Positions 44,313-62,335 of a DNA stretch of 64,000 nucleotides are shown here, one piece after another. Each line of letters starts with the position of its first letter. The stretch's first letter is position 1. The position numbers and the translations under genes are program-made. The DNA is taken from assembly GCF_026586625.1 (NCBI RefSeq), contig NZ_JAODIW010000010.1, positions 248,001 to 312,000 of the forward strand, read 5' to 3'. The stretch is from Halobium salinum (GTDB taxonomy: Archaea; Halobacteriota; Halobacteria; Halobacteriales; Haloferacaceae). Under the pieces are notes generated by a model. That model had not been told where the DNA came from. It saw only the letters and a program-made list of their open reading frames with translations, and made no database searches.

Positions 44313-45302
44313 ATGTCTGGGGGAGAAAAATTCACCGTCTATTCAATGAAGTTGCAGCCTGCGAAACAGACCGGTTTCTATGATGCCTGCCGCCAACACA
44401 ATATCATCGGAACCGGATGGGACCCCAATGGTCCCCAGAAATCTCCTGATGATATTGAGCAAGCCCACCGCGCCGCCGGACGGACGACCAAGAGCGGAAG
44501 ACTGCGTCATGAACTCCGCTACATCATCCACGGAATGAACAGTGGCGAGGATGGATCGCCGTCAGATTATGTCTGGGTGAACGAAGGGAGCAAGTACGCT
44601 ATTTGTAAGGTCAAATCGGAATGCGTGACCAGTTACGATGTAAAAGAGGAACTCCGCGAAGACCTAACCAACGAAAACGGGGCACAAATATATAACATCC
44701 GTCGGGTTGAGTGGACAGATGTCCCAGTGAACTTCGTACCGGGATACGTGCAGCGCAAGTTCACAGGTCGTTTCGGAACGCTGAACAAGATGAAGACAGG
44801 TGTTGATGCAGACGCTAAGCGCGTCATCCAACATCTTCATTCAATTGATGACTTTGATACGGAGCGCTCTGTATCGCTGGATAAGCTACAATCAGCTGTA
44901 GAGGCTCTCGATGCTGATACCCTGTTCAGTATTTTAGATGCCGACGATACCGAGGAGTTGGTACTAGACTACCTCCAATCAAAGGGCTGGCGACTTACAA
45001 AATACTCAACTGGCGACTCGCAAGCAACGTATGAATGCGAACTCCGGCGCGTTACTGACCAGAATCGCGAAACTGCCTACGTGCAGGTTAAATCTGGCAG
45101 TGCAACTGTTGATCCACAGGATTATACAGAACTGGCAAAGCAAGGAAGAGTGTTCTTGTTCAGTAACTTGATGGGCACTGAAGAAGATAGTATTCCTCAG
45201 AACATTTCTGTCTTGGAACCAAATGAACTCATGCAACATCTCCAAGAGAATCTTGGATGGCTTCCAATGCCGACGCTCCTCCGTCTCTCGACTTCGATAT
45301 AG
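44313..45302 (+). CDS. Candidate modification-dependent nuclease: reader-like domain plus Mrr-like domain
   Basis: A 329-residue protein of unknown activity. The N-terminal half has the pattern of a PUA/EVE-like reader: HNIIGTGW, then SDYVWVNEGSKYAICKV and RVEWTDVPVNFVPGYVQRKF. The C-terminal half looks like a restriction-endonuclease fold: LVLDYLQSKGWRLTKY, then YECELRR and AYVQVKSG, where E and QxK fit the PD-(D/E)xK variant used by Mrr enzymes. Together this suggests a type IV restriction enzyme. It is an inference from motifs, without a search. Confidence 0.6.
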   Translation: MSGGEKFTVYSMKLQPAKQTGFYDACRQHNIIGTGWDPNGPQKSPDDIEQAHRAAGRTTKSGRLRHELRYIIHGMNSGEDGSPSDYVWVNEGSKYAICKVKSECVTSYDVKEELREDLTNENGAQIYNIRRVEWTDVPVNFVPGYVQRKFTGRFGTLNKMKTGVDADAKRVIQHLHSIDDFDTERSVSLDKLQSAVEALDADTLFSILDADDTEELVLDYLQSKGWRLTKYSTGDSQATYECELRRVTDQNRETAYVQVKSGSATVDPQDYTELAKQGRVFLFSNLMGTEEDSIPQNISVLEPNELMQHLQENLGWLPMPTLLRLSTSI

Positions 45303-45749: not shown

Positions 45750-46143
45750 GCTGTTGAATCGTCCCAACCGATCATCAATAGAGTGTGATAGTAGATAACC
45801 TCCGTCTCAGCACAGCTACAGAGAGCGGTGGATGTGTCGCTGGGACAGTCATGAGAAGGCGGACCGCACGCGCGACCATTACCATGGGTTTCCCTGAGAC
45901 TGCCACGAGAATGGAGGAACCAAGGCTATCCTCGAGAATTCGCGGAAGTGATCGCCAGAGTGGCCGGAATAACGCTTCGGGACACGGTATTCCTGAGGAG
46001 AGAATCCTATGGGTGCCCCTGAGAGACAGAGATAACGTGATGTTCGAGGTGGGGATGGAATCTGACAGGATACCGAATGGTCGACAATGAGTCCAGTCCT
46101 TTCCTGTGAACGCTTTGAAGTACTTGTGTTGAGAGCCAAGCAT
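45750..46143. other. Gene-free stretch in the island
   Basis: Frames of 85-122 codons exist on both strands here but have no protein-like composition, no promoter in place and overlap each other. Nothing convincing was found. Confidence 0.4.
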
Positions 46144-47595
46144 ATGGTACTCCAGCGTGAGAACCCACTATTTCAGGCTCAGCAAACTTGGCCTCTCCAT
46201 CAGTTCGGGTCAGACCGTCACGACTTCATCAAGCGACCACCATACCAGCGCAAGACTGTTTGGGAGCGCAAAAAGCAGAAGAGCCTCATGGAGAGCTTCA
46301 TTTGCGGGCTCTACGTTCCTCCAGTCGTTCTCAGAAGTATTACCCACGAGACCATCCAGAAGTACGAAGTAATCGATGGCCAGCAACGCATTACAGCAAT
46401 CCAAGATTACCTCAACGACGAGTACTCCCTCCCAAATAGCCAGCAAATCCGAGAGATCGATAACCGCCAAGATCGTGGTTTCGCTGGCAACAGCTTTGCC
46501 GAACTCAGCGACGATGACCAGGCCGCTATCGAGCAAGACTGCAACCTCACAGTAGACATCTTGCAAGGAATTAGTAATCCGACGAGCACCGAACACCAGC
46601 AACTCGCCACACAGGTGTTTTGGCGCCTCCAACAAGGCGAGTCTCTCAATACGTTGGAGGAAAACCACTCCAAAATCACGAGCCCGGTTCGGAACTACAT
46701 TGTTGAGCGTGCTGACGATATTAGTTTCGACTATGATGAGTACAAGAGCTTGGATCACAACGACGACCGGCACCCGTTCTTTTCTTTGGTCAACTATGGG
46801 AACAACCGTCTGAAACACCTCGGCCTGCTCGCTCGGTTCCTTCTCATTGAGATTGCTGACGGCCCGGCTTACGTAACCGGAACCCGTGTCACTCGCCTCT
46901 TCGACTGCGAGAAGGGCACGCTAAATCCAAACGAGGACCAAACGGCGTTCCGGAGCCGCCGAGAAGTTCAGCGAACAGACGAGATGCTCGACACTCTACA
47001 CGACATCTTCAAAGATACCGAGATGATGACTGACGACGACCAAGTTGTCTACTTCGATAATGAGTACTACATCATCACACTCTACACCCTCATCCGGGAA
47101 CTCCAGTTCGGCAATTACCGCTTCAACTCTGGTAATTTCAGGGAGATTCGAGAATTCGCCCGTGACTTCTACCGCCGTATGCAGAACGAACCTGTCGGTG
47201 ATGATGCCATTCTCCGGTTCAAGTCGAAAAGCCAGCAAAGTGCCGATCCGGTAGCTGCTCGCCACTGGATAATGATGAACGAGCTCTGGAAAACAGAACC
47301 CGATATCGTCGAACTTGACAGTCAGCGGTTGTTCACACACGCCCAAAGGGTTGCTATCTTTCTCCGTGACGACCGCGTCTGTCAGCAGTGTTTGGAGGAA
47401 GAGTTAGAAGCGCTCGACCCCGATGAGGACGAATCAAAAGCGAAAAATCGTGCCCGAGTCGCTTGGAGCAATTGGGACGCCGATCACATCGTAATGCACG
47501 CTGAAGGTGGGGATACAACAATCGAGAATGGGCAAGTGCGTTGCCCGGAACACAACCGAAGCGACAACGTCATCCGCTCCGAACTCACCGACTAA
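46144..47595 (+). CDS. DUF262 - HNH nuclease protein
   Basis: A 483-residue protein. The N-terminal DUF262 (ParB-like) domain has PPYQRKTVWERKKQKSLMES, LYVPPVVLR and the signature VIDGQQRITAI. The C-terminus has an HNH-type zinc nuclease: CQQC near residue 416, WDADHIVMHAEGG, then CPEHNRSDN. DUF262-HNH/DUF1524 proteins (GmrD, SspE relatives) act in nucleotide-dependent restriction of modified phage DNA. The inner ATG is preferred to one 19 codons upstream. It stands alone, without the usual partner subunits. Confidence 0.82.
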   Translation: MVLQRENPLFQAQQTWPLHQFGSDRHDFIKRPPYQRKTVWERKKQKSLMESFICGLYVPPVVLRSITHETIQKYEVIDGQQRITAIQDYLNDEYSLPNSQQIREIDNRQDRGFAGNSFAELSDDDQAAIEQDCNLTVDILQGISNPTSTEHQQLATQVFWRLQQGESLNTLEENHSKITSPVRNYIVERADDISFDYDEYKSLDHNDDRHPFFSLVNYGNNRLKHLGLLARFLLIEIADGPAYVTGTRVTRLFDCEKGTLNPNEDQTAFRSRREVQRTDEMLDTLHDIFKDTEMMTDDDQVVYFDNEYYIITLYTLIRELQFGNYRFNSGNFREIREFARDFYRRMQNEPVGDDAILRFKSKSQQSADPVAARHWIMMNELWKTEPDIVELDSQRLFTHAQRVAIFLRDDRVCQQCLEEELEALDPDEDESKAKNRARVAWSNWDADHIVMHAEGGDTTIENGQVRCPEHNRSDNVIRSELTD

Positions 47596-54574: not shown

Positions 54575-56518
54575 TCACCTATCGACTGATCGTACAATTG
54601 TCGCGACAAAGAGGCTAATCAGGAATGCTCCGATGAAGCTCTCAATTGAAGATAGGAGATTCACCATTGGAGTGGCGTTCTCAATACCACCCCCGAACAT
54701 GAATCCGGTGAAGGATTGCCAACTCGCGATTAGGTTCCCCATCCCCCAGATGGTTATATTGAGTGTCTCGTTCTGACCGAGTCCAACCGAGAAGGTGTAT
54801 TCTACCGGTTGAATACCGGTTTCTTCTATAATCCCGTATAGTACTGAAAAGATACCCACGCAGAACAGGGACCAACCAACGACCCTCCCTGGGCTTTCAC
54901 CGTACACGCAGGCGATGTCGTACGACTTGTTCAGCGCCCACTGTACTCCATATCGTGCTTTCTTACGGACGTCGTCGGAATCGGCGAACCGGCTCGTGTA
55001 TTTTTGTCGCCGTGTTCGCTTCTCCCTCACGAAGAAATTCGATTCGGCAAGACTATCCCCGACATCGCTTGCGCCGAGTTTTGCTTTAGCGTAGGTCGTT
55101 TCTTTGTTCTCGGACTCTTGGGTGAATTCGTTCCCTCGGACGCCATCGATCTCCCATCTGATGTCCTCTAAATGGTCCCGGTTGTCGAAGAAGTCGAAGT
55201 TGTAAAATGACGTGTTGTCGATGAAGAGGTTCCTGAAGGGGTTGATGCCTTGCTTTGAATCAATAGTGACGTCCCCTAAATCGGTGCGTGGGACCTCGTA
55301 GAGGCTATTTTTGTGGTTGAATCTGAATACACCGCCGTTGATTTCAGACCCGTAGAATGCGACTGAACAGGGGTGGTTCTCAAATTCGACATCAAGTTCG
55401 ATGTGATGGAATTTCGCATTCGGTATGGTGAGGTAGTATTTTGAATTTATATCGGTAAACCGGAATATGTCGTTGGACTCAGTTTCGTTGAATGAAGCCG
55501 ACACTCGTGATGTATCCTCAATTTTATCGCTGAACACGCCATTGCCTAATACATTATTACAATTCTGTACACTCTCCCGTTCAATGCCCTCTGAAAAAAT
55601 ATGATCCGGGATGTCCTCCTCCATTAGATACACATATTTGCTACCGAACTCGCTTCCTTCAAAACTCGCCGGTCCGTTGAACACGGACTTGCTGAATGTT
55701 GCTGTTCCGAATTCCACATCGGTGAAGTCGGTTTCTCTTGTGAAGGTTGCAGAATCAAATACAACACCGGTTGAGAACGTAGTGCCGTGGAAGACACAAC
55801 CAGATTTAAATTCAGAATGGAAGAAATTTGCACCATTCCTGAATATGGATTTGGCAAAGATAGCTCCATTATTAAACTTCGCGCCCATGAAGTTTGCAGT
55901 CTGGATGAACCGACAATGGCCTTCTCCGAGATTGTCTTCCACCTCAGAAATTGACGCTGAATCGACCATAGAGTCGCACAAAGTGAGGTGTTTACTGAAA
56001 ACAGCCTCCATGAAACTCACCGAATGAAATGTCGTATCTGTAGCCTGAACCCGGTCGTGAAAGGTCGTGTCAGTGAAATCCCCATCAACAATCAGAGACT
56101 GCTCTACTCCGAACGGCGCCTGAACACTAGCGTGGGAGAGATCGATTTTACCGAATCTACAGTCAACTATTTGCAGGCTTCTTAGAATCTCTTCTCTAGA
56201 GAAATCCACCGTCCCAAGAACCGTTGAGAACCCGATCTTAACCTCTGAACCATTTGCGATATAGGGCCAAAGTCCCTTCAGATTCAGGTGATCTACCGTG
56301 GTGCAGATAATCTGTATACGCCCGGTCTTCGCGATTGCTTTCCGGTATTCACTATTCCTCTCCGATATAGTAGGGAAAACCTGGTTCCGAGCTCTCCGAG
56401 GAAGATGAAATATACAGTAATTTTCCCCCTTGACCGGGGGGTACGGGCACTCCCACGGTTCGGTGAGCTTTGAGGTTTCTCTGGGCCACAGGGAGGGGTC
56501 AAAGACAAACTCACACAT
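54575..56518 (-). CDS. Pentapeptide-repeat protein fused to a pore-like membrane domain
   Basis: A 647-residue protein. An N-terminal Cys/His cluster (WECP, then GENYCIFHLP) may bind zinc. Residues about 95-460 are pentapeptide-type repeats (TANFMGAKFNNGAIFAKSIF and similar), a right-handed beta-helix. A charged helical linker follows, then at least three membrane segments (VVGWSLFCVGIFSVLYGII, and IESFIGAFLISLFVATIV) with an intervening SFTGFMFGGG loop that resembles the pore loop of two-helix ion channels but lacks a canonical TVGYG filter. Likely a membrane effector or channel. Confidence 0.7.
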   Translation of the reverse strand: MCEFVFDPSLWPRETSKLTEPWECPYPPVKGENYCIFHLPRRARNQVFPTISERNSEYRKAIAKTGRIQIICTTVDHLNLKGLWPYIANGSEVKIGFSTVLGTVDFSREEILRSLQIVDCRFGKIDLSHASVQAPFGVEQSLIVDGDFTDTTFHDRVQATDTTFHSVSFMEAVFSKHLTLCDSMVDSASISEVEDNLGEGHCRFIQTANFMGAKFNNGAIFAKSIFRNGANFFHSEFKSGCVFHGTTFSTGVVFDSATFTRETDFTDVEFGTATFSKSVFNGPASFEGSEFGSKYVYLMEEDIPDHIFSEGIERESVQNCNNVLGNGVFSDKIEDTSRVSASFNETESNDIFRFTDINSKYYLTIPNAKFHHIELDVEFENHPCSVAFYGSEINGGVFRFNHKNSLYEVPRTDLGDVTIDSKQGINPFRNLFIDNTSFYNFDFFDNRDHLEDIRWEIDGVRGNEFTQESENKETTYAKAKLGASDVGDSLAESNFFVREKRTRRQKYTSRFADSDDVRKKARYGVQWALNKSYDIACVYGESPGRVVGWSLFCVGIFSVLYGIIEETGIQPVEYTFSVGLGQNETLNITIWGMGNLIASWQSFTGFMFGGGIENATPMVNLLSSIESFIGAFLISLFVATIVRSVDR

Positions 56519-56711: not shown

Positions 56712-57176
56712 GGTGACTCAGCTTCTAGAGACAGAGCGTGTCTACTGCTCTGCACCGATGCTTGTTCCAAGACTATTCTTCCGGCCCTGAACGATGAAGT
56801 AGACGGACAACAGGAGACTTACGCCCATCAGCCCGAATACTATCTCTGATGATACCAATGGTACACTCTGCTCTTCCAAGAGGTCGCTGAAGAGTATGAG
56901 CCCAAGCGCTAGTGAGAGTGTAGAGAACGTAAACTGGAGCTTCTGATTCTTACTCTGTTCTGATTTACGTGTCCACACCCAAACAATTGCGAAAGGAGCT
57001 GTGCCGACAAGAAAGAGAGTGGCAAGTAGTGAAATATCCATGTGCTACAGCTACATTCTGAAACGGTAAATATTCTATCACCCTCCGAGACGAATAATCA
57101 GCGTCCACTCCTCCCGAAAGCTACGACTCAATTATCTAGTGCTAGACTCGCGGCACCTCTCTAGGAGGTGAGTCAC
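56712..57176. mobile_element. Cassette 1: inverted-repeat-bounded single-gene unit
   Basis: Left repeat 56712-56744 (GGTGACTCAGCTTCTAGAGA, then CAGAGCGTGTCTA); right repeat 57144-57176 in opposite orientation (on the minus strand GTGACTCACCTCCTAGAGAG then GTGCCGCGAGTCT). One membrane-protein gene lies between them and its stop codon is part of the left repeat. No transposase. No clear target-site duplication. Confidence 0.65.
56742..57041 (-). CDS. Small membrane protein of cassette 1
   Basis: A 99-residue protein with three membrane helices (LLATLFLVGTAPFAIVWVW, TLSLALGLILFSDLL, EIVFGLMGVSLLLSVYFIV). It ends with AEQ and its TAG stop is within the flanking repeat. The sequence is unrelated to the protein of cassette 3. 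Function unknown. Confidence 0.6.
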   Translation of the reverse strand: MDISLLATLFLVGTAPFAIVWVWTRKSEQSKNQKLQFTFSTLSLALGLILFSDLLEEQSVPLVSSEIVFGLMGVSLLLSVYFIVQGRKNSLGTSIGAEQ

Positions 57177-57575
57177 AGCGAGTGGTGGTGAAATTAAGTT
57201 GCGTTGTGTCCCCCGACGAGGAGGACGAGGCATGAGCAAGCCTCTCGCCGGCCACGCTGATACCCTCACCGGTGCCCGAGAGCAACAGAACACACCCGCC
57301 CTCGTCAAGCGAATTGAGGGAACGAGACAGCCCGCATCGAGAGCGAGTCGCCAACCGGGCGCACCAAGGGTGACATGACCGCTTGCTTCGTCCTGTAGAC
57401 CGCCACCAGGGGTCTGCCGGGTTATCGTCTTCACCCGACCGATGACGCGCCGAACGTCGCCAATATGCTATTCGCGGAAACGCCGCTCTACCGTCAGATA
57501 CGTCTCTCAGCAGCGAAATGCGGTCTCTAATTCGTCCCCGGGACTCTGATTCGGTGGCGAGACAAACCAACCCGT
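57177..57575 (+). pseudogene. Decayed partial copy of the gene at 59739-61107
   Basis: The DNA aligns with about 60200-60560 in blocks such as CACCCGCCCTCGTC, GAGAGCGAGTC, ACCGGGCGCACCAAGG, GACGCGCCGAACGT and CGGTGGCGAG, but with many substitutions, indels and stops. The reading frame is destroyed. It begins right after the right repeat of cassette 1, so it was truncated by or before that insertion. Confidence 0.65.
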
Positions 57576-57660
57576 CTTACACCCCAATATAGGTGTAACG
57601 AGGCAGAAAAAGTCTCTCTCCCAATAAACATTTATATACTCGGGACGAGACGTTTCTAAT

Positions 57661-58785
57661 ATGCGAAACAGAATGCGTTTCCGCCCGGTTACAGTGGAAG
57701 ACGTAGAAGTGGAGGAGATAGTGCGAGGACTCGTTTATCTCCCGGACCTCCTAGAGGCACCAGCGCTTGATCCTCACGAATATGAGTCCATCTCCGAAGC
57801 AATCCAGGACGTAGCTTTTGAGATGGACGAGATCAAGGAGGAATTCGGAGACACAGAGTACGTTTCCCACTATCAGAAACTAGCTGAATGGGCTAATGAG
57901 TATGTGGCACGGGTTGATTCGGAGTGTAACTTTTCCGATGGTGATTCAGAAGCTATAGCTGGCGACTGTCTAACTCTCCGACTATGGGGAGATACTAAGC
58001 CCGCTGCAAGCCCGTTTGTATTCGAAATCGATTATCATGCAGGGGGAGAGGTCGGGTGCCGCTTACTGACGGTTCCAAATTACGACCGTTCATGGGCTGA
58101 GGGGACCCAAGTACCATGGACTGACAGAAGCCATGAGCTTCGAGAGACAGACGTCGAGTTGGACTACGACGGTACTTTGACTACATCGTCAATCAATGAG
58201 ATTTGGTCAATTCTCTTGGAAGAGGTTCCATATGTTACCGGCCGAGTACAGGAATTGTACGAGGAGGGTGGAATCCCACTTAGCCAAGCACGGACACGTG
58301 CACTCAAAGAAAGTGGATGCTCGGAAGAAGAGATCAGCCGTCGGTTGGATGTCGGAGAACGAACGGTGTCTTCATACCAATCAAAATATCGACAAACGGC
58401 TCGAGAAATCCGGCGTGCCTTCCTCGCGACAGCCGGACCACCGATGCGAATAGTCGCATCAAATACGTGGGAGTGGGATGAACAGCCCGTTCAGTTATTC
58501 GTTGCTATCCCTAACTGGTATGATTCTAATGTTGACCTTCCTAACGGTACCCAGGCATCAATTCCGGGAGCGTGGCTGATTGAGTTCCCGCCCGTGCAAA
58601 GCAGGTGGGACTTTCAAATGGAAGTTGAAGCGTTCGACTCTCTTAGCGACCTGCTTAGCGAGCTTGATGAAAGGGCAGAAAATGAGAGCTATCAGGGTTA
58701 TGGCCCCAATTGGAACGGGCTTCGCCAACAGATTCCTCGAGTCCTTCGTGAACGGGCTGATCAGCCGTCTCGGTGGTGGGTATGA
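57661..58785 (+). CDS. Unknown protein with sigma-70-region-4-like helix-turn-helix
   Basis: A 374-residue protein. Residues about 200-245 contain a helix-turn-helix of the LuxR/sigma-region-4 kind: GIPLSQARTRALKESGCSEE then EISRRLDVGERTVSSYQSKY. The rest is an alpha/beta domain with acidic patches and a C-terminal half rich in Trp and aromatic residues (ASNTWEWDEQPVQLFVAIPN). It is coupled to the Mre11-like gene by an ATGA overlap. No family recognised; possible regulator or DNA-recognition partner of the phosphoesterase. Confidence 0.6.
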   Translation: MRNRMRFRPVTVEDVEVEEIVRGLVYLPDLLEAPALDPHEYESISEAIQDVAFEMDEIKEEFGDTEYVSHYQKLAEWANEYVARVDSECNFSDGDSEAIAGDCLTLRLWGDTKPAASPFVFEIDYHAGGEVGCRLLTVPNYDRSWAEGTQVPWTDRSHELRETDVELDYDGTLTTSSINEIWSILLEEVPYVTGRVQELYEEGGIPLSQARTRALKESGCSEEEISRRLDVGERTVSSYQSKYRQTAREIRRAFLATAGPPMRIVASNTWEWDEQPVQLFVAIPNWYDSNVDLPNGTQASIPGAWLIEFPPVQSRWDFQMEVEAFDSLSDLLSELDERAENESYQGYGPNWNGLRQQIPRVLRERADQPSRWWV

Positions 58786-59732
58786 GTCAGAAAACACGCT
58801 TGCTCTGTGTGGGCGATACACATCTCGGAAGGGCGGAAACTTCGGACGGGAAGAAAGGCTCACATGGCCAGTGGGCGTACATCTTTGCGTTCGAAGCGGC
58901 CATTTCGATTGCAATATATCGAGACGCTGACGCCATCGTACACACGGGGGACATCTTTGAAACTCAGCGTCCGTCATCCACAATCGTAAGCATCGCACGG
59001 AGACAACTTGCTCGGCTAAGGGAAGCCGGGATACAATTCTGCTACGTACCCGGCGATCACGATGAGGAAACCGGACGCCACCAGCGACACCCTCGAGCGA
59101 GCCGGTACGAAGACGTACTACAGAAAATTCAACTTCCGAGAACGCCCGGAATTGACGACTTTATGAGCGAATACCAAACGTTCAATCTAGGTCGAACTCC
59201 CCATATGGTAGCTCACAATTGTGCCCTCTATGGAATCCCGAGTTCACAGCGAACTGAAAAAGAGTATCGCCAAGGTATCACTCCGATTCAATCGGACACC
59301 TCCAATCAGGATGGGATATTCAACATCATAAACGCTCATGCAGGAATTTCGCCGGGATGGAAACGAGCTCGTCACGACATCCCCTCAGTGCTTGGTGAAC
59401 TTCCCAATCGAATGTCGATAGACGTTCTCATTTGTGGTCATCTTCATCGACCGGAAGTGCGAGAATATCCCACTGACTCTTGCCCCCTGTTCATCAACCC
59501 CGGTTCTCCGGTCCGTATCAACGGAGCAACTAATCGAAATTATCAGCCACAGGTGACCTTGCTTGAGTTCCCGAACGGCCGAAGCAAGTCCACGGCAGGC
59601 TGTATTGAACGAGAAAGGATTGACGTTCCTGTGACCCAATCGGGCTGTGCAAGACTCGCTGAAAAGGCACGTGAAGCACTATTCGAAACCCGACAAAACA
59701 GGCAGGATGTGACCGCTGCCGAACCAGCATGA
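58782..59732 (+). CDS. Mre11/SbcD-like metallophosphoesterase
   Basis: A 316-residue phosphoesterase. Motifs in order: LLCVGDTHLGRAE, AIVHTGDIFE, YVPGDHDEE, INAHAGISPG and LICGHLHRPEV, the metal-binding set of DNA-repair exonucleases of the Mre11/SbcD type. The GDHDE motif has Asp where GNHD is usual. There is no SbcC/Rad50 ATPase nearby. It is translated with the helix-turn-helix protein upstream. Confidence 0.8.
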   Translation: MSQKTRLLCVGDTHLGRAETSDGKKGSHGQWAYIFAFEAAISIAIYRDADAIVHTGDIFETQRPSSTIVSIARRQLARLREAGIQFCYVPGDHDEETGRHQRHPRASRYEDVLQKIQLPRTPGIDDFMSEYQTFNLGRTPHMVAHNCALYGIPSSQRTEKEYRQGITPIQSDTSNQDGIFNIINAHAGISPGWKRARHDIPSVLGELPNRMSIDVLICGHLHRPEVREYPTDSCPLFINPGSPVRINGATNRNYQPQVTLLEFPNGRSKSTAGCIERERIDVPVTQSGCARLAEKAREALFETRQNRQDVTAAEPA

Positions 59733-59738
59733 GTTCCG

Positions 59739-61107
59739 GTGAAAACGCCGCGTCCTTGCCCAAGGAAGCCGATTGGCACTTTCACGTTTCGGGAAACCAG
59801 CGACAGTCCGGTGACCGTGGCCGACGCCGTCGAACGCGCCGCCACGCAGGGCGTTTACGACACCGCCTGTCGTGCCGGCGGCCCCGAGGCGTATGTTTAA
59901 ACCTCGCTGAGTGTGCCGACGCCGTCACGCGGCGTGTGGCCGCCCTCGACGAGATGCCCGTCCCCGACTCGGTCGGCGTCCTCCTCGACACCACCGACGA
60001 CCTGTGGCGCCGCCTCCTGCAGTACGTCAGCGACGACCGCCTCGACGTCCGCGAACAGGACGGGGAGGCGGTCCTCCGAGCGGTGTCGCCCCGCTTGACG
60101 ATCGCGACCGTCGGCGAGAATCAGTCCGCCGGCGGCGCCGGCTACGCCCTGCTCCTGTGGGACGCCCACCCCGGGCTGACGTACGCCGGCCTCGACATCA
60201 CAATCGCCGACGCGAGTGGCGACGACGCCGACGCCCTCGCTCGACCGACGCCCGAGGCCGAGCAGCACGCGCCCGCCCTCGTCGAGCGGCTCACCGGCGG
60301 CGAGGAGGCCCGCGTCGAGAGCGAGTCCTCGACCGGGCGCACCAAGGCCGGCATGACCGCCCGCCACGTTCTGCAGGCCGCCGCCGAAGGCCGTCGGGCT
60401 ATCGTCCTAACTCGCCCCGACGACGCGCCGAACGTGGCCGACACGCTCCTCGCGGAACCGCCGTTCTGCCGGTCAGATTCAGTCGAAGACGGCGAAACCC
60501 GATACTACACCTCGCCCCGTGACCTCCGAATCGGTGGCGAGGCCTTGACCCGGCCCGGCTCCCGGTCGAACGTGTGGGTACGGGAGGCGAGCGGCGAGGT
60601 CGTCCTCCGAGACGACGTCGGGACCGAACACGCCCGGTTCCCCGACGTCGCCGCCGCGTTCAGCGACGCCGACGCCTACCCGGGCGGCGAGCGGACGGTG
60701 AAACGCCCATCGTCCCCGAGGCGCTGCTCGACGGCGTCGACGCCGAGCCCCACACAGAGATAGTGACCGTCCCCGAGGGCGCGACCGACCTGTCGGACCT
60801 CTCGCTCGTCGTCGACGACCGGGGCCTGACCGTCCCTGCCGAGGCGGTCGGCGCCGGCTCGGGCTCGGGCGCTCCCGATCGGGACGCGGTCGACCCCGAG
60901 GACCTCGACGTGACCGACGGGGCGCGCGAGCTCCTGCGGGCGCTCCGAGAGGCCGGCGACAGTCCCGTGACCGTGGCCGACGCGGTCGAGCACGTCGACG
61001 TCTCCCGTCGGTCGGTGCGAAACTACCTCGGTGCCCTCGCCGACGAGGGGGCGCTCCGACGCGAGGAGACACCCGGGACGTCCGCCGACCTGTTCCACCT
61101 CGACTGA
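59739..61107 (+). pseudogene. Frameshifted gene of unknown function with C-terminal winged helix
   Basis: The reconstructed protein (about 455 residues) starts at GTG 59739 (KPIGTFTFRETSDSPVTVAD ...GGPEAYV), shifts frame near 59896 into LAECADAVTRRVAALDEMPV, and shifts again near 60700 into PIVPEALLDGVDAEPH, ending DLFHLD. The middle carries STGRTKAGMTARHVL and EGRRAIVLTRPDD. The C-terminal region (DSPVTVADAVEHVDVSRRSV) is a winged helix. The DNA encoding DSPVTVADAVE also occurs near the N-terminus. High GC unlike its surroundings suggests transfer from another haloarchaeon. Confidence 0.7.
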
Positions 61108-61145
61108 CTCGACTGCAGAAAGGCTTTATTCCACTACCGTTCGCT

Positions 61146-61808
61146 GTGAATCAGCTCCTAGAGAGGTGCCGCGTATGCAGGACATCAACCTATCAAGATT
61201 CGATTTTTACCGGTCACCAGTTTGAACACTGGTGTGTGGACATCGTCCAGTCGTCAGAACCACCTTTCTGCGATGTTACCCTGTAGCCTTGGATGGCTCC
61301 GCTACAGCTGAGCGTCTTTATTGAGCGATATGTCCCGTCGTCTTCGTCGTAGACAAGGACGACGATTGCTTTGTTAGGGGCGACACCCTCAACATCGATT
61401 TGCTTTCGCTCACCAGGCTGGAGGGTATACTCACCGTGTCTACTGGCGGACTCAGGAAAGTCAATGTGAGTGAAACTCGAAGCATTCGAGGTGGTGTATG
61501 TGGATGAGCCTTGGTTGATTGTGTAATTGAATGAATCACCATCTCCGTCCTGAACGGTGAGATTGTTACCGACTTCAACGACACCCACCGTGAACGTCTC
61601 CGTCTGAGTTGCGTTGTTCACCATCATCACCGGCGCTGGCTCTTTCTGTGGTGCAGGTTCTACACCGGGAATGGCGCTACAGCCTGCGAGACACACCAGA
61701 AGAACGAGTCCGAATGGCACCCACTGAGTCACTTTCTACTATTTTGTCAGGTAGCGATATGGTTCCTTCGCTCCGCAACTCACGCTCTATCTATAGGAGC
61801 TGGGTCAC
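61146..61808. mobile_element. Cassette 2: inverted-repeat-bounded single-gene unit
   Basis: Left repeat 61146-61176 (GTGAATCAGCTCCTAGAGAG then GTGCCGCG); right repeat 61781-61808 (CACGCTCTATCTATAGGAGC then TGGGTCAC) in the opposite orientation. Between them is one lipoprotein gene. In this unit the gene points toward the left repeat. Confidence 0.6.
61214..61732 (-). CDS. Small lipoprotein of cassette 2
   Basis: A 172-residue secreted protein. The signal ends in the lipobox CLAGC (LVLLVCLAGC, about residue 18). The mature part is beta-rich with a repeated Thr/Asn/Ser pattern (TETFTVGVVEVGNNLTVQDG) and two late cysteines. Resembles small immunoglobulin-like lipoproteins of haloarchaea. Function unknown. 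Confidence 0.65.
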   Translation of the reverse strand: MTQWVPFGLVLLVCLAGCSAIPGVEPAPQKEPAPVMMVNNATQTETFTVGVVEVGNNLTVQDGDGDSFNYTINQGSSTYTTSNASSFTHIDFPESASRHGEYTLQPGERKQIDVEGVAPNKAIVVLVYDEDDGTYRSIKTLSCSGAIQGYRVTSQKGGSDDWTMSTHQCSNW

Positions 61809-61855
61809 ACCGACTGACGCTGGAAGAAACTCCCTTTGTTCCGACCGGGTTCGAC

Positions 61856-62335
61856 GTGACTCAGCTCTTAGAGAGGTGCCGCGAGTCTCAGATTGACTCC
61901 CCAGCACCTATGTCGTGACCTTCCTATGTGTGAACGATGATTTCGCGTCGAACGAAGGCTCGGATTAGTTTTGTCAGCAGCCTCTATCGAGCATATCAAC
62001 GCTGTACTCGGGTGGTAAATAACGAAGAGACAGTTCAGTTTGCCCCTCGATATTTTGTCCTCGGTTTTATTTATCAAATCGTACGCGGATGGACATACGA
62101 CCGTGACTACGGCAATAACCGTACAAACCGCTGGCGTCGGTTCTTGATTCCGGTGGCGATCTTTCCTCTTCTTCTGAAACTATTAGACCTAATCTCAGAA
62201 TCCGAACGCGAAAGTCTCGTACTAGGTGCCGCAGTTGGGACGATACTGTACAGACTTTGGTATGGAGTCCTCAATCCGCTTCCTGACACAGTGAGCGAAC
62301 AATAGACACGCTCTGTCTCTAGAGGCTGAATCACC
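61856..62335. mobile_element. Cassette 3: inverted-repeat-bounded single-gene unit
   Basis: Left repeat 61856-61888 (GTGACTCAGCTCTTAGAGAG then GTGCCGCGAGTCT); right repeat 62303-62335 (TAGACACGCTCTGTCTCTAG then AGGCTGAATCACC). It matches cassette 1 turned round: the stop codon of the enclosed gene is the TAG of the right repeat. The tetranucleotide CGAC flanks both ends, a possible 4-bp target duplication. Confidence 0.65.
61937..62305 (+). CDS. Small membrane protein of cassette 3
   Basis: A 122-residue protein. Basic N-terminus (MISRRTKARISFVSSLYRAY), membrane-like segments around FVLGFIYQIV, FLIPVAIFPLLLKLL and LVLGAAVGTILYRLWYGV. The stop codon lies in the flanking repeat. Not related to the cassette 1 protein. 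Function unknown. Confidence 0.6.
   Translation: MISRRTKARISFVSSLYRAYQRCTRVVNNEETVQFAPRYFVLGFIYQIVRGWTYDRDYGNNRTNRWRRFLIPVAIFPLLLKLLDLISESERESLVLGAAVGTILYRLWYGVLNPLPDTVSEQ

Follow-up and report, generated by a model that had tools for sequence, protein, structure and literature searches.

A helix-turn-helix protein and an Mre11-like phosphoesterase without a Rad50 partner form an overlapping gene pair in a restriction-rich island of Halobium salinum

A two-gene locus within a 64,000-nucleotide stretch of the Halobium salinum genome (hereafter the window) raises the question of what an Mre11-like phosphoesterase does beside a helix-turn-helix (HTH) protein instead of Rad50. Its genes, P1 and P2, were compared with haloarchaeal genomes, plasmids, viruses and solved structures, and the genes around them were analyzed.

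The gene pair and its helix-turn-helix protein

Both genes are intact and lie on the + strand. P1 (57661-58785) encodes 374 amino acids from an ATG start, and P2 (58782-59732) encodes 316 amino acids, likewise from an ATG. The stop codon of P1 and the ATG of P2 share the ATGA at 58782-58785 (+ strand), the overlap on which the original prediction of a coupled pair was built. The frame of P2 as listed opens with a GTG at 58773 (319 aa), and the ATG at 58782 (316 aa) is preceded by GGTGG. A TATA-like box (ATTTATATAC, 57630-57639, + strand), recognized by eye, lies upstream of P1 at what we take to be archaeal promoter spacing. The longest stop-free stretch in 300 first-order Markov simulations of 8 kb with the local composition had a median of 181 and a maximum of 324 codons; P1 exceeds this maximum and P2 comes close to it, and the open frames of the pair are more than chance. 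With a pI of 4.4 P1 is acidic, as proteins of halophiles usually are, and P2 is near neutral (pI 7.7).

The HTH of P1 was located at residues ~204-256 (58270-58428, + strand) by Pfam, PHROG and AlphaFold2. The matches are weak, all of those in Pfam being below the cut-offs (Xre-like-HTH, 14.8 bits vs a cut-off of 25.8), with PHROG 664 at 9.6e-5, and among the sequences in the PDB no match to P1 was found. A single-sequence AlphaFold2 model reached a pLDDT of ~76-85 over residues ~190-230 only and is too poor overall (43.5). These results agree with the predicted picture of an HTH in the middle of an otherwise unrecognized protein, as the models match the central HTH only. A stretch of 65 residues is 34% identical (24.6 bits) to the HTH of an HTH-HNH-like protein found in one of 390 other Halobacteria genomes (G067, locus L002); the likeness does not extend beyond the HTH, and the other protein has an end that by eye resembles an HNH domain.

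Two further candidates were rejected. An internal duplication around the HTH, suspected by eye, had a BLOSUM62 score that was equalled by 1259 of 2000 shuffled sequences and a BLOSUM45 score that was equalled by 127 of 2000 (BLASTP E=15). A potential paralogue in the same genome (G000:C10, 38% identity over ~61 residues, E 0.005) was taken as a chance match because it lies inside a 317-aa open reading frame that by eye looks like an unrelated metabolic gene.

The phosphoesterase and its Rad50-free relatives

P2 was recognized by Pfam as a calcineurin-type phosphoesterase domain alone (Metallophos_2, 5.9e-11; Metallophos, 1.4e-10), and NCBIfam lists Mre11 models first (Mre11_Sulfo and Mre11_Halo). 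The scores are far below the curated cut-offs for full-length Mre11/SbcD equivalogs (58.5 vs 500, 49.2 vs 550 and 30.2 vs 77.65 bits, the first two for Mre11_Sulfo and Mre11_Halo) and the similarity to Mre11_Halo is confined to residues 5-225 of 316, so that the sequence does not reveal a capping domain or a Rad50-binding part. What P2 shares with the Mre11 and SbcD subunits of Mre11-Rad50 and SbcCD is the catalytic phosphoesterase core. A phmmer search of solved structures (E up to 0.01) returned 10 sequences, exclusively SbcD and Mre11 entries (best 0.00026). With a profile built from P2 and eight relatives, an Mre11 structure came first (1ii7, 2.9e-22), and the 20 structure sequences at E up to 1e-8 were named Mre11, Rad32 or SbcD with two exceptions, one called "exonuclease putative" and one Nbs1-Rad32 chimera. 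The structure model of P2 itself (pLDDT 33.9) was too poor for use.

P2 had been described as carrying all the metal motifs of Mre11/SbcD. This holds for D12, H14, D57, H93, H186, H220 and H222 but not for the asparagine of the GNH motif, which is replaced by Asp92 (GDHD). In an alignment of 12 sequences this position is occupied by Asp in five, Asn in four and Ser in three, and 4 of the 11 relatives of P2 share the Asp.

The predicted lack of a Rad50/SbcC partner was confirmed in that no Rad50 gene adjoins P2, the next open reading frame being a VirD4-like fragment. Elsewhere in the genome, at C13:256642-257787, a canonical Mre11 (618.3 bits, over the cut-off) overlaps a gene whose start, judged by eye, we take to be that of a Rad50-like protein. 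Since the genome already has this canonical arrangement, P2 is an extra enzyme, and its reading as a Rad50-free, Mre11-like protein that is probably co-transcribed with the HTH protein is well supported by sequence.

Matches to P2 at 1e-8 were present in 242 of 391 genomes of the class, and for most of the matches listed the identity is ~34-42% across the first 100 residues. Among the best matches are phosphoesterases without Rad50 that carry additional N-terminal sequence, which by eye comprises zinc-finger-like repeats, a TRAM-like start, an OB-like domain or a segment of 160-200 aa; Pfam recognizes the phosphoesterase domain alone in these proteins. Like P2, the Rad50-free haloarchaeal enzymes have a short core whose end comes shortly after the GHxH region, with no visible cap, and several lie in defence-type islands. 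In contrast to most of them, P2 has no N-terminal extension, follows a separate gene (P1) and branches apart. The original prediction held that the pairing would be a new architecture, which is half right: many haloarchaea have phosphoesterases of this type with an additional N-terminal domain in the same polypeptide. Because of these widespread fusions the joining of an extra domain to an Mre11-like enzyme appears as a repeated theme, of which P1-P2, judged from sequence, would be a two-gene version.

A nine-row profile built with these phosphoesterases (A3) was used to search the same 391 genomes and 39 loci were examined (L034, L038-L041, L043, L044 and L111-L142), with two loci each from three genomes. 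A BREX gene block (gene clusters C1-C2-C4-C3 or most of these) lies near the phosphoesterase in 16 of the 39 loci, a frequency that is biased because the loci top a profile search whose nine rows held three BREX-type sequences. In 15 loci (L112-L119, L121-L124, L126, L128 and L129) a Rad50-free Mre11-like phosphoesterase of ~410-477 aa is directly adjacent to, and divergent from, the brxA/brxB/brxC-type block, and phosphoesterase and brx genes also occur together in L034 and L040. The BREX identity was established by models in L112, where PADLOC and Pfam assign three of the four clusters to BrxA, BrxB and BrxC and leave C1 unrecognized, and in L040, where PADLOC assigns cluster C5 to PglX; the other loci share these clusters by BLASTP. 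In the annotation of a Halorarius halobius plasmid, the same type of phosphoesterase is next to a gene with a PglZ domain, and a BrxA gene lies nearby. The BREX-linked phosphoesterase, which in L112 has no PADLOC match, is a candidate BREX accessory nuclease. In the literature outside most subscription journals, the search found no BREX-linked or stand-alone Mre11-like defence phosphoesterase; in PMC12839542 the single passage on a phosphoesterase concerns other immune systems and the terms "calcineurin" and "Mre11" are absent.

Two other loci with Rad50-free phosphoesterases near TGT-family genes (L038, which also contains DUF5591, and L043) look like 7-deazaguanine DNA-modification islands, and one TGT-family locus has genes that by eye resemble preQ0 synthesis genes and are presumably Que genes. 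A search of viral_contigs with A3 yielded three viral loci; in the two that were read (L143 and L144) the phosphoesterase has beside it a gene that by eye we take to be SbcC-like.

The catalytic domain of the BREX-linked enzymes is related to that of P2, but no BREX gene was found near P1-P2 among the open reading frames that were read by eye or scanned, which cover 42-64 kb of the window plus sequence outside it. In a tree of 66 rows the BREX-linked group had a support of 100/100 and did not include P2. P2 lies outside every named group, and its end branch, 2.33 long against a median of 0.07, makes its placement unsure. Given this branch outside the BREX-linked and all other groups, a function cannot be transferred to P2 with confidence.

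Conservation of the two genes as neighbors in other genomes, on which the original prediction depended, was not observed. No full-length relative of P1 was found in the 391 Halobacteria genomes or in 170 genomes of the family, two samples that overlap; the three matches in the family sample at E up to 0.01 are the own genome and two weak, partial ones. The plasmid collection and the phages contained nothing similar to P1, and neither P1 nor P2 alone had confirmed loci in genome_contigs or viral_contigs. No P1-like gene was present among the genes called near the 39 related phosphoesterases, where a non-acidic neighbor could be overlooked because only acidic open reading frames were called (P2 itself was missed in L047). 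Overall, the pair was found in a single genome, the sole representative of its genus in the searched sample. This absence counts against a general system without implying that the present copy is inert. A neighboring pair of 374 and 314 aa in L131 was dismissed as a counterpart, as its members proved unrelated and lie 1.3 kb apart.

The island and the possible functions of the pair

The GC content of the island around the pair is 51-52%, and that of the window's initial 40 kb is ~70%. The expected wealth of restriction-like genes is borne out by a GmrSD-like gene (46087-47592; GmrSD_N, 75 bits), a weak Mrr-like gene (44313-45299; Mrr_cat, 18 bits, cut-off 21) and, just beyond the window, a full type I restriction system and a type II methyltransferase. 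The island further contains a rolling-circle-type replication gene below cut-off and a serine recombinase, and two tyrosine integrases (one identified by Pfam, one by eye) follow beyond the window. Four copies of a 33-nt direct repeat with a CACCTCRTTTCCGCCGCAA-like core (52192, 54493, 63533 and 63566) could be replication-initiator or integrase sites. A 647-aa pentapeptide-repeat protein (54578-56518, - strand; Pfam Pentapeptide_3) has an end that by eye resembles a membrane channel.

The closest neighbors of the pair are remnants of coupling-protein genes, all on the + strand. A frameshifted C-terminal part of a VirD4/TraM-recognition-like gene (59903-61107) is ~36-50% identical to VirD4/TraM-type proteins of haloarchaeal plasmids (27 records). 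Two degenerate VirD4-like fragments flank the pair, one upstream (57268-57561, 73% DNA identity to 60244-60541) and one just after P2 (59785-59841, 81% identity to 60941-60997), and the pair therefore looks inserted into, or as replacing, the middle of a decayed copy of a coupling-protein gene.

The tentatively preferred explanation, held at somewhat less than even chances, is that P1 and P2 make up a nuclease module of two genes with a probable role in defence, in which P1 regulates or targets P2. The operon would have been acquired horizontally; P2 would be a Rad50-independent, Mre11-like, metal-dependent phosphoesterase, most likely a DNA nuclease, and P1 its dedicated HTH partner, which would bind DNA as well as P2 and either restrain P2 or guide it to foreign DNA; together the two would serve as a small defence or element-versus-element module. 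We infer nuclease activity, DNA binding, contact between P1 and P2 and the defence role of the pair from family and neighborhood. A nuclease module is suggested by the overlapping, co-directional and intact genes, by the motifs of P2 and by its affinity to Mre11, and a defence role by the Rad50-free relatives of P2 in BREX and TGT-family loci and by an island of low GC content that holds a GmrSD-like gene, type I restriction-modification, a methyltransferase and integrases. The lack of a relative of the pair elsewhere, Asp92 and the weakness of the HTH argue against this reading, and neither protein has a PADLOC match among anti-phage system models at E up to 1. With its weak HTH, P1 could be a plain regulator.

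The gene order itself, with the HTH gene first, a short overlap, a mobile setting and an acidic protein paired with a neutral one, would also suit a toxin-antitoxin-like pair, with P2 as a nuclease that harms the host and P1 as an HTH autorepressor and neutralizer. This is unlikely, as P1 is large for an antitoxin and no antitoxin family (Xre-like-HTH included) scores above its cut-off; to our knowledge there is no Mre11-type toxin. It is distinctly improbable that P2, regulated by P1, is not a DNA nuclease but a phosphodiesterase of small molecules or RNA, or a phosphatase: Mre11/SbcD structures come first in both the sequence and the profile searches, even if the general metallophosphoesterase domain is the only one to pass its curated cut-off, YfcE-type models also match P2 (41.2 vs 56.25 bits) and the GNH asparagine is lost.

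The VirD4/TraM-like fragments on both sides would fit a DNA-processing accessory of a decayed conjugative element flanked by its coupling protein. The pair, however, looks inserted into the VirD4-like gene and not part of it, no relative of P1 was found in the plasmid collection, and the annotations around three VirD4-like plasmid genes, many of them "hypothetical", include no phosphoesterase, which leaves this origin with a rather low probability. That P1-P2 is orphan cargo which now has no function and was picked up by a mobile region rich in genes would agree with the decayed neighbors and with the lack of conservation in any search, but it is very unlikely for two genes that are intact over 690 codons amid decayed fragments and have a clean TATA box and overlap.

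Beyond the preferred nuclease module, a more far-reaching and doubtful extension is that the HTH protein replaces Rad50 as the DNA-reading partner in a nuclease of two components and that P1-P2 is a split form of a Rad50-free haloarchaeal radiation that cuts for defence islands. If so, Rad50-free Mre11-like enzymes would carry their own nucleic-acid-binding domains and BREX would be among the islands served. Mre11-type enzymes are known as one half of a Rad50-gated repair machine, and Rad50-free relatives that have other DNA-binding parts and lie beside BREX or restriction genes would mean that the same core was recruited repeatedly for immunity of haloarchaea against viruses and plasmids. P1-P2 alone is a single-genome case and its value is as one member of a wider, directly testable set.

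Integron-like cassettes around the pair

A 28-bp site (GTGACTCAGCTYCTAGAGANGTGCCGCG, up to three mismatches) has 19 occurrences in this genome, against 0 in the control, and is absent from 117 other genomes searched. The sites delimit gene cassettes, at 56713-62334 in the window and at L152, L153 and L154, that are integron-like by comparison with attC features. Inward-facing site pairs enclose small genes, which by eye encode membrane proteins, an XRE-type regulator and an RHH and PIN-like pair. In all four close pairs, the sites that join adjoining cassettes are spaced by exactly 66 bp, and three of the four + strand joints fold into a long hairpin better than shuffled sequences (z -2.5 to -3.5; fourth joint -0.1). 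One cassette with an 82-aa membrane-type open reading frame is found twice (L058, G000:C11:481920; L068, C11:1325814) with 97.5% identity over 408 bp, and the cassettes appear to move because these copies are near-identical inside and surrounded by different sequence.

The segment that holds the pair is bordered by B-type cassette half-sites at 57149-57176 (- strand) and 61146-61173 (+ strand). A single-copy, 266-aa open reading frame that by eye resembles a tyrosine recombinase (L154:3346-4143, - strand) lies between two outward-facing B-type sites in the same arrangement as around P1-P2 (57158, 61146), and this protein may be the cassette integrase.
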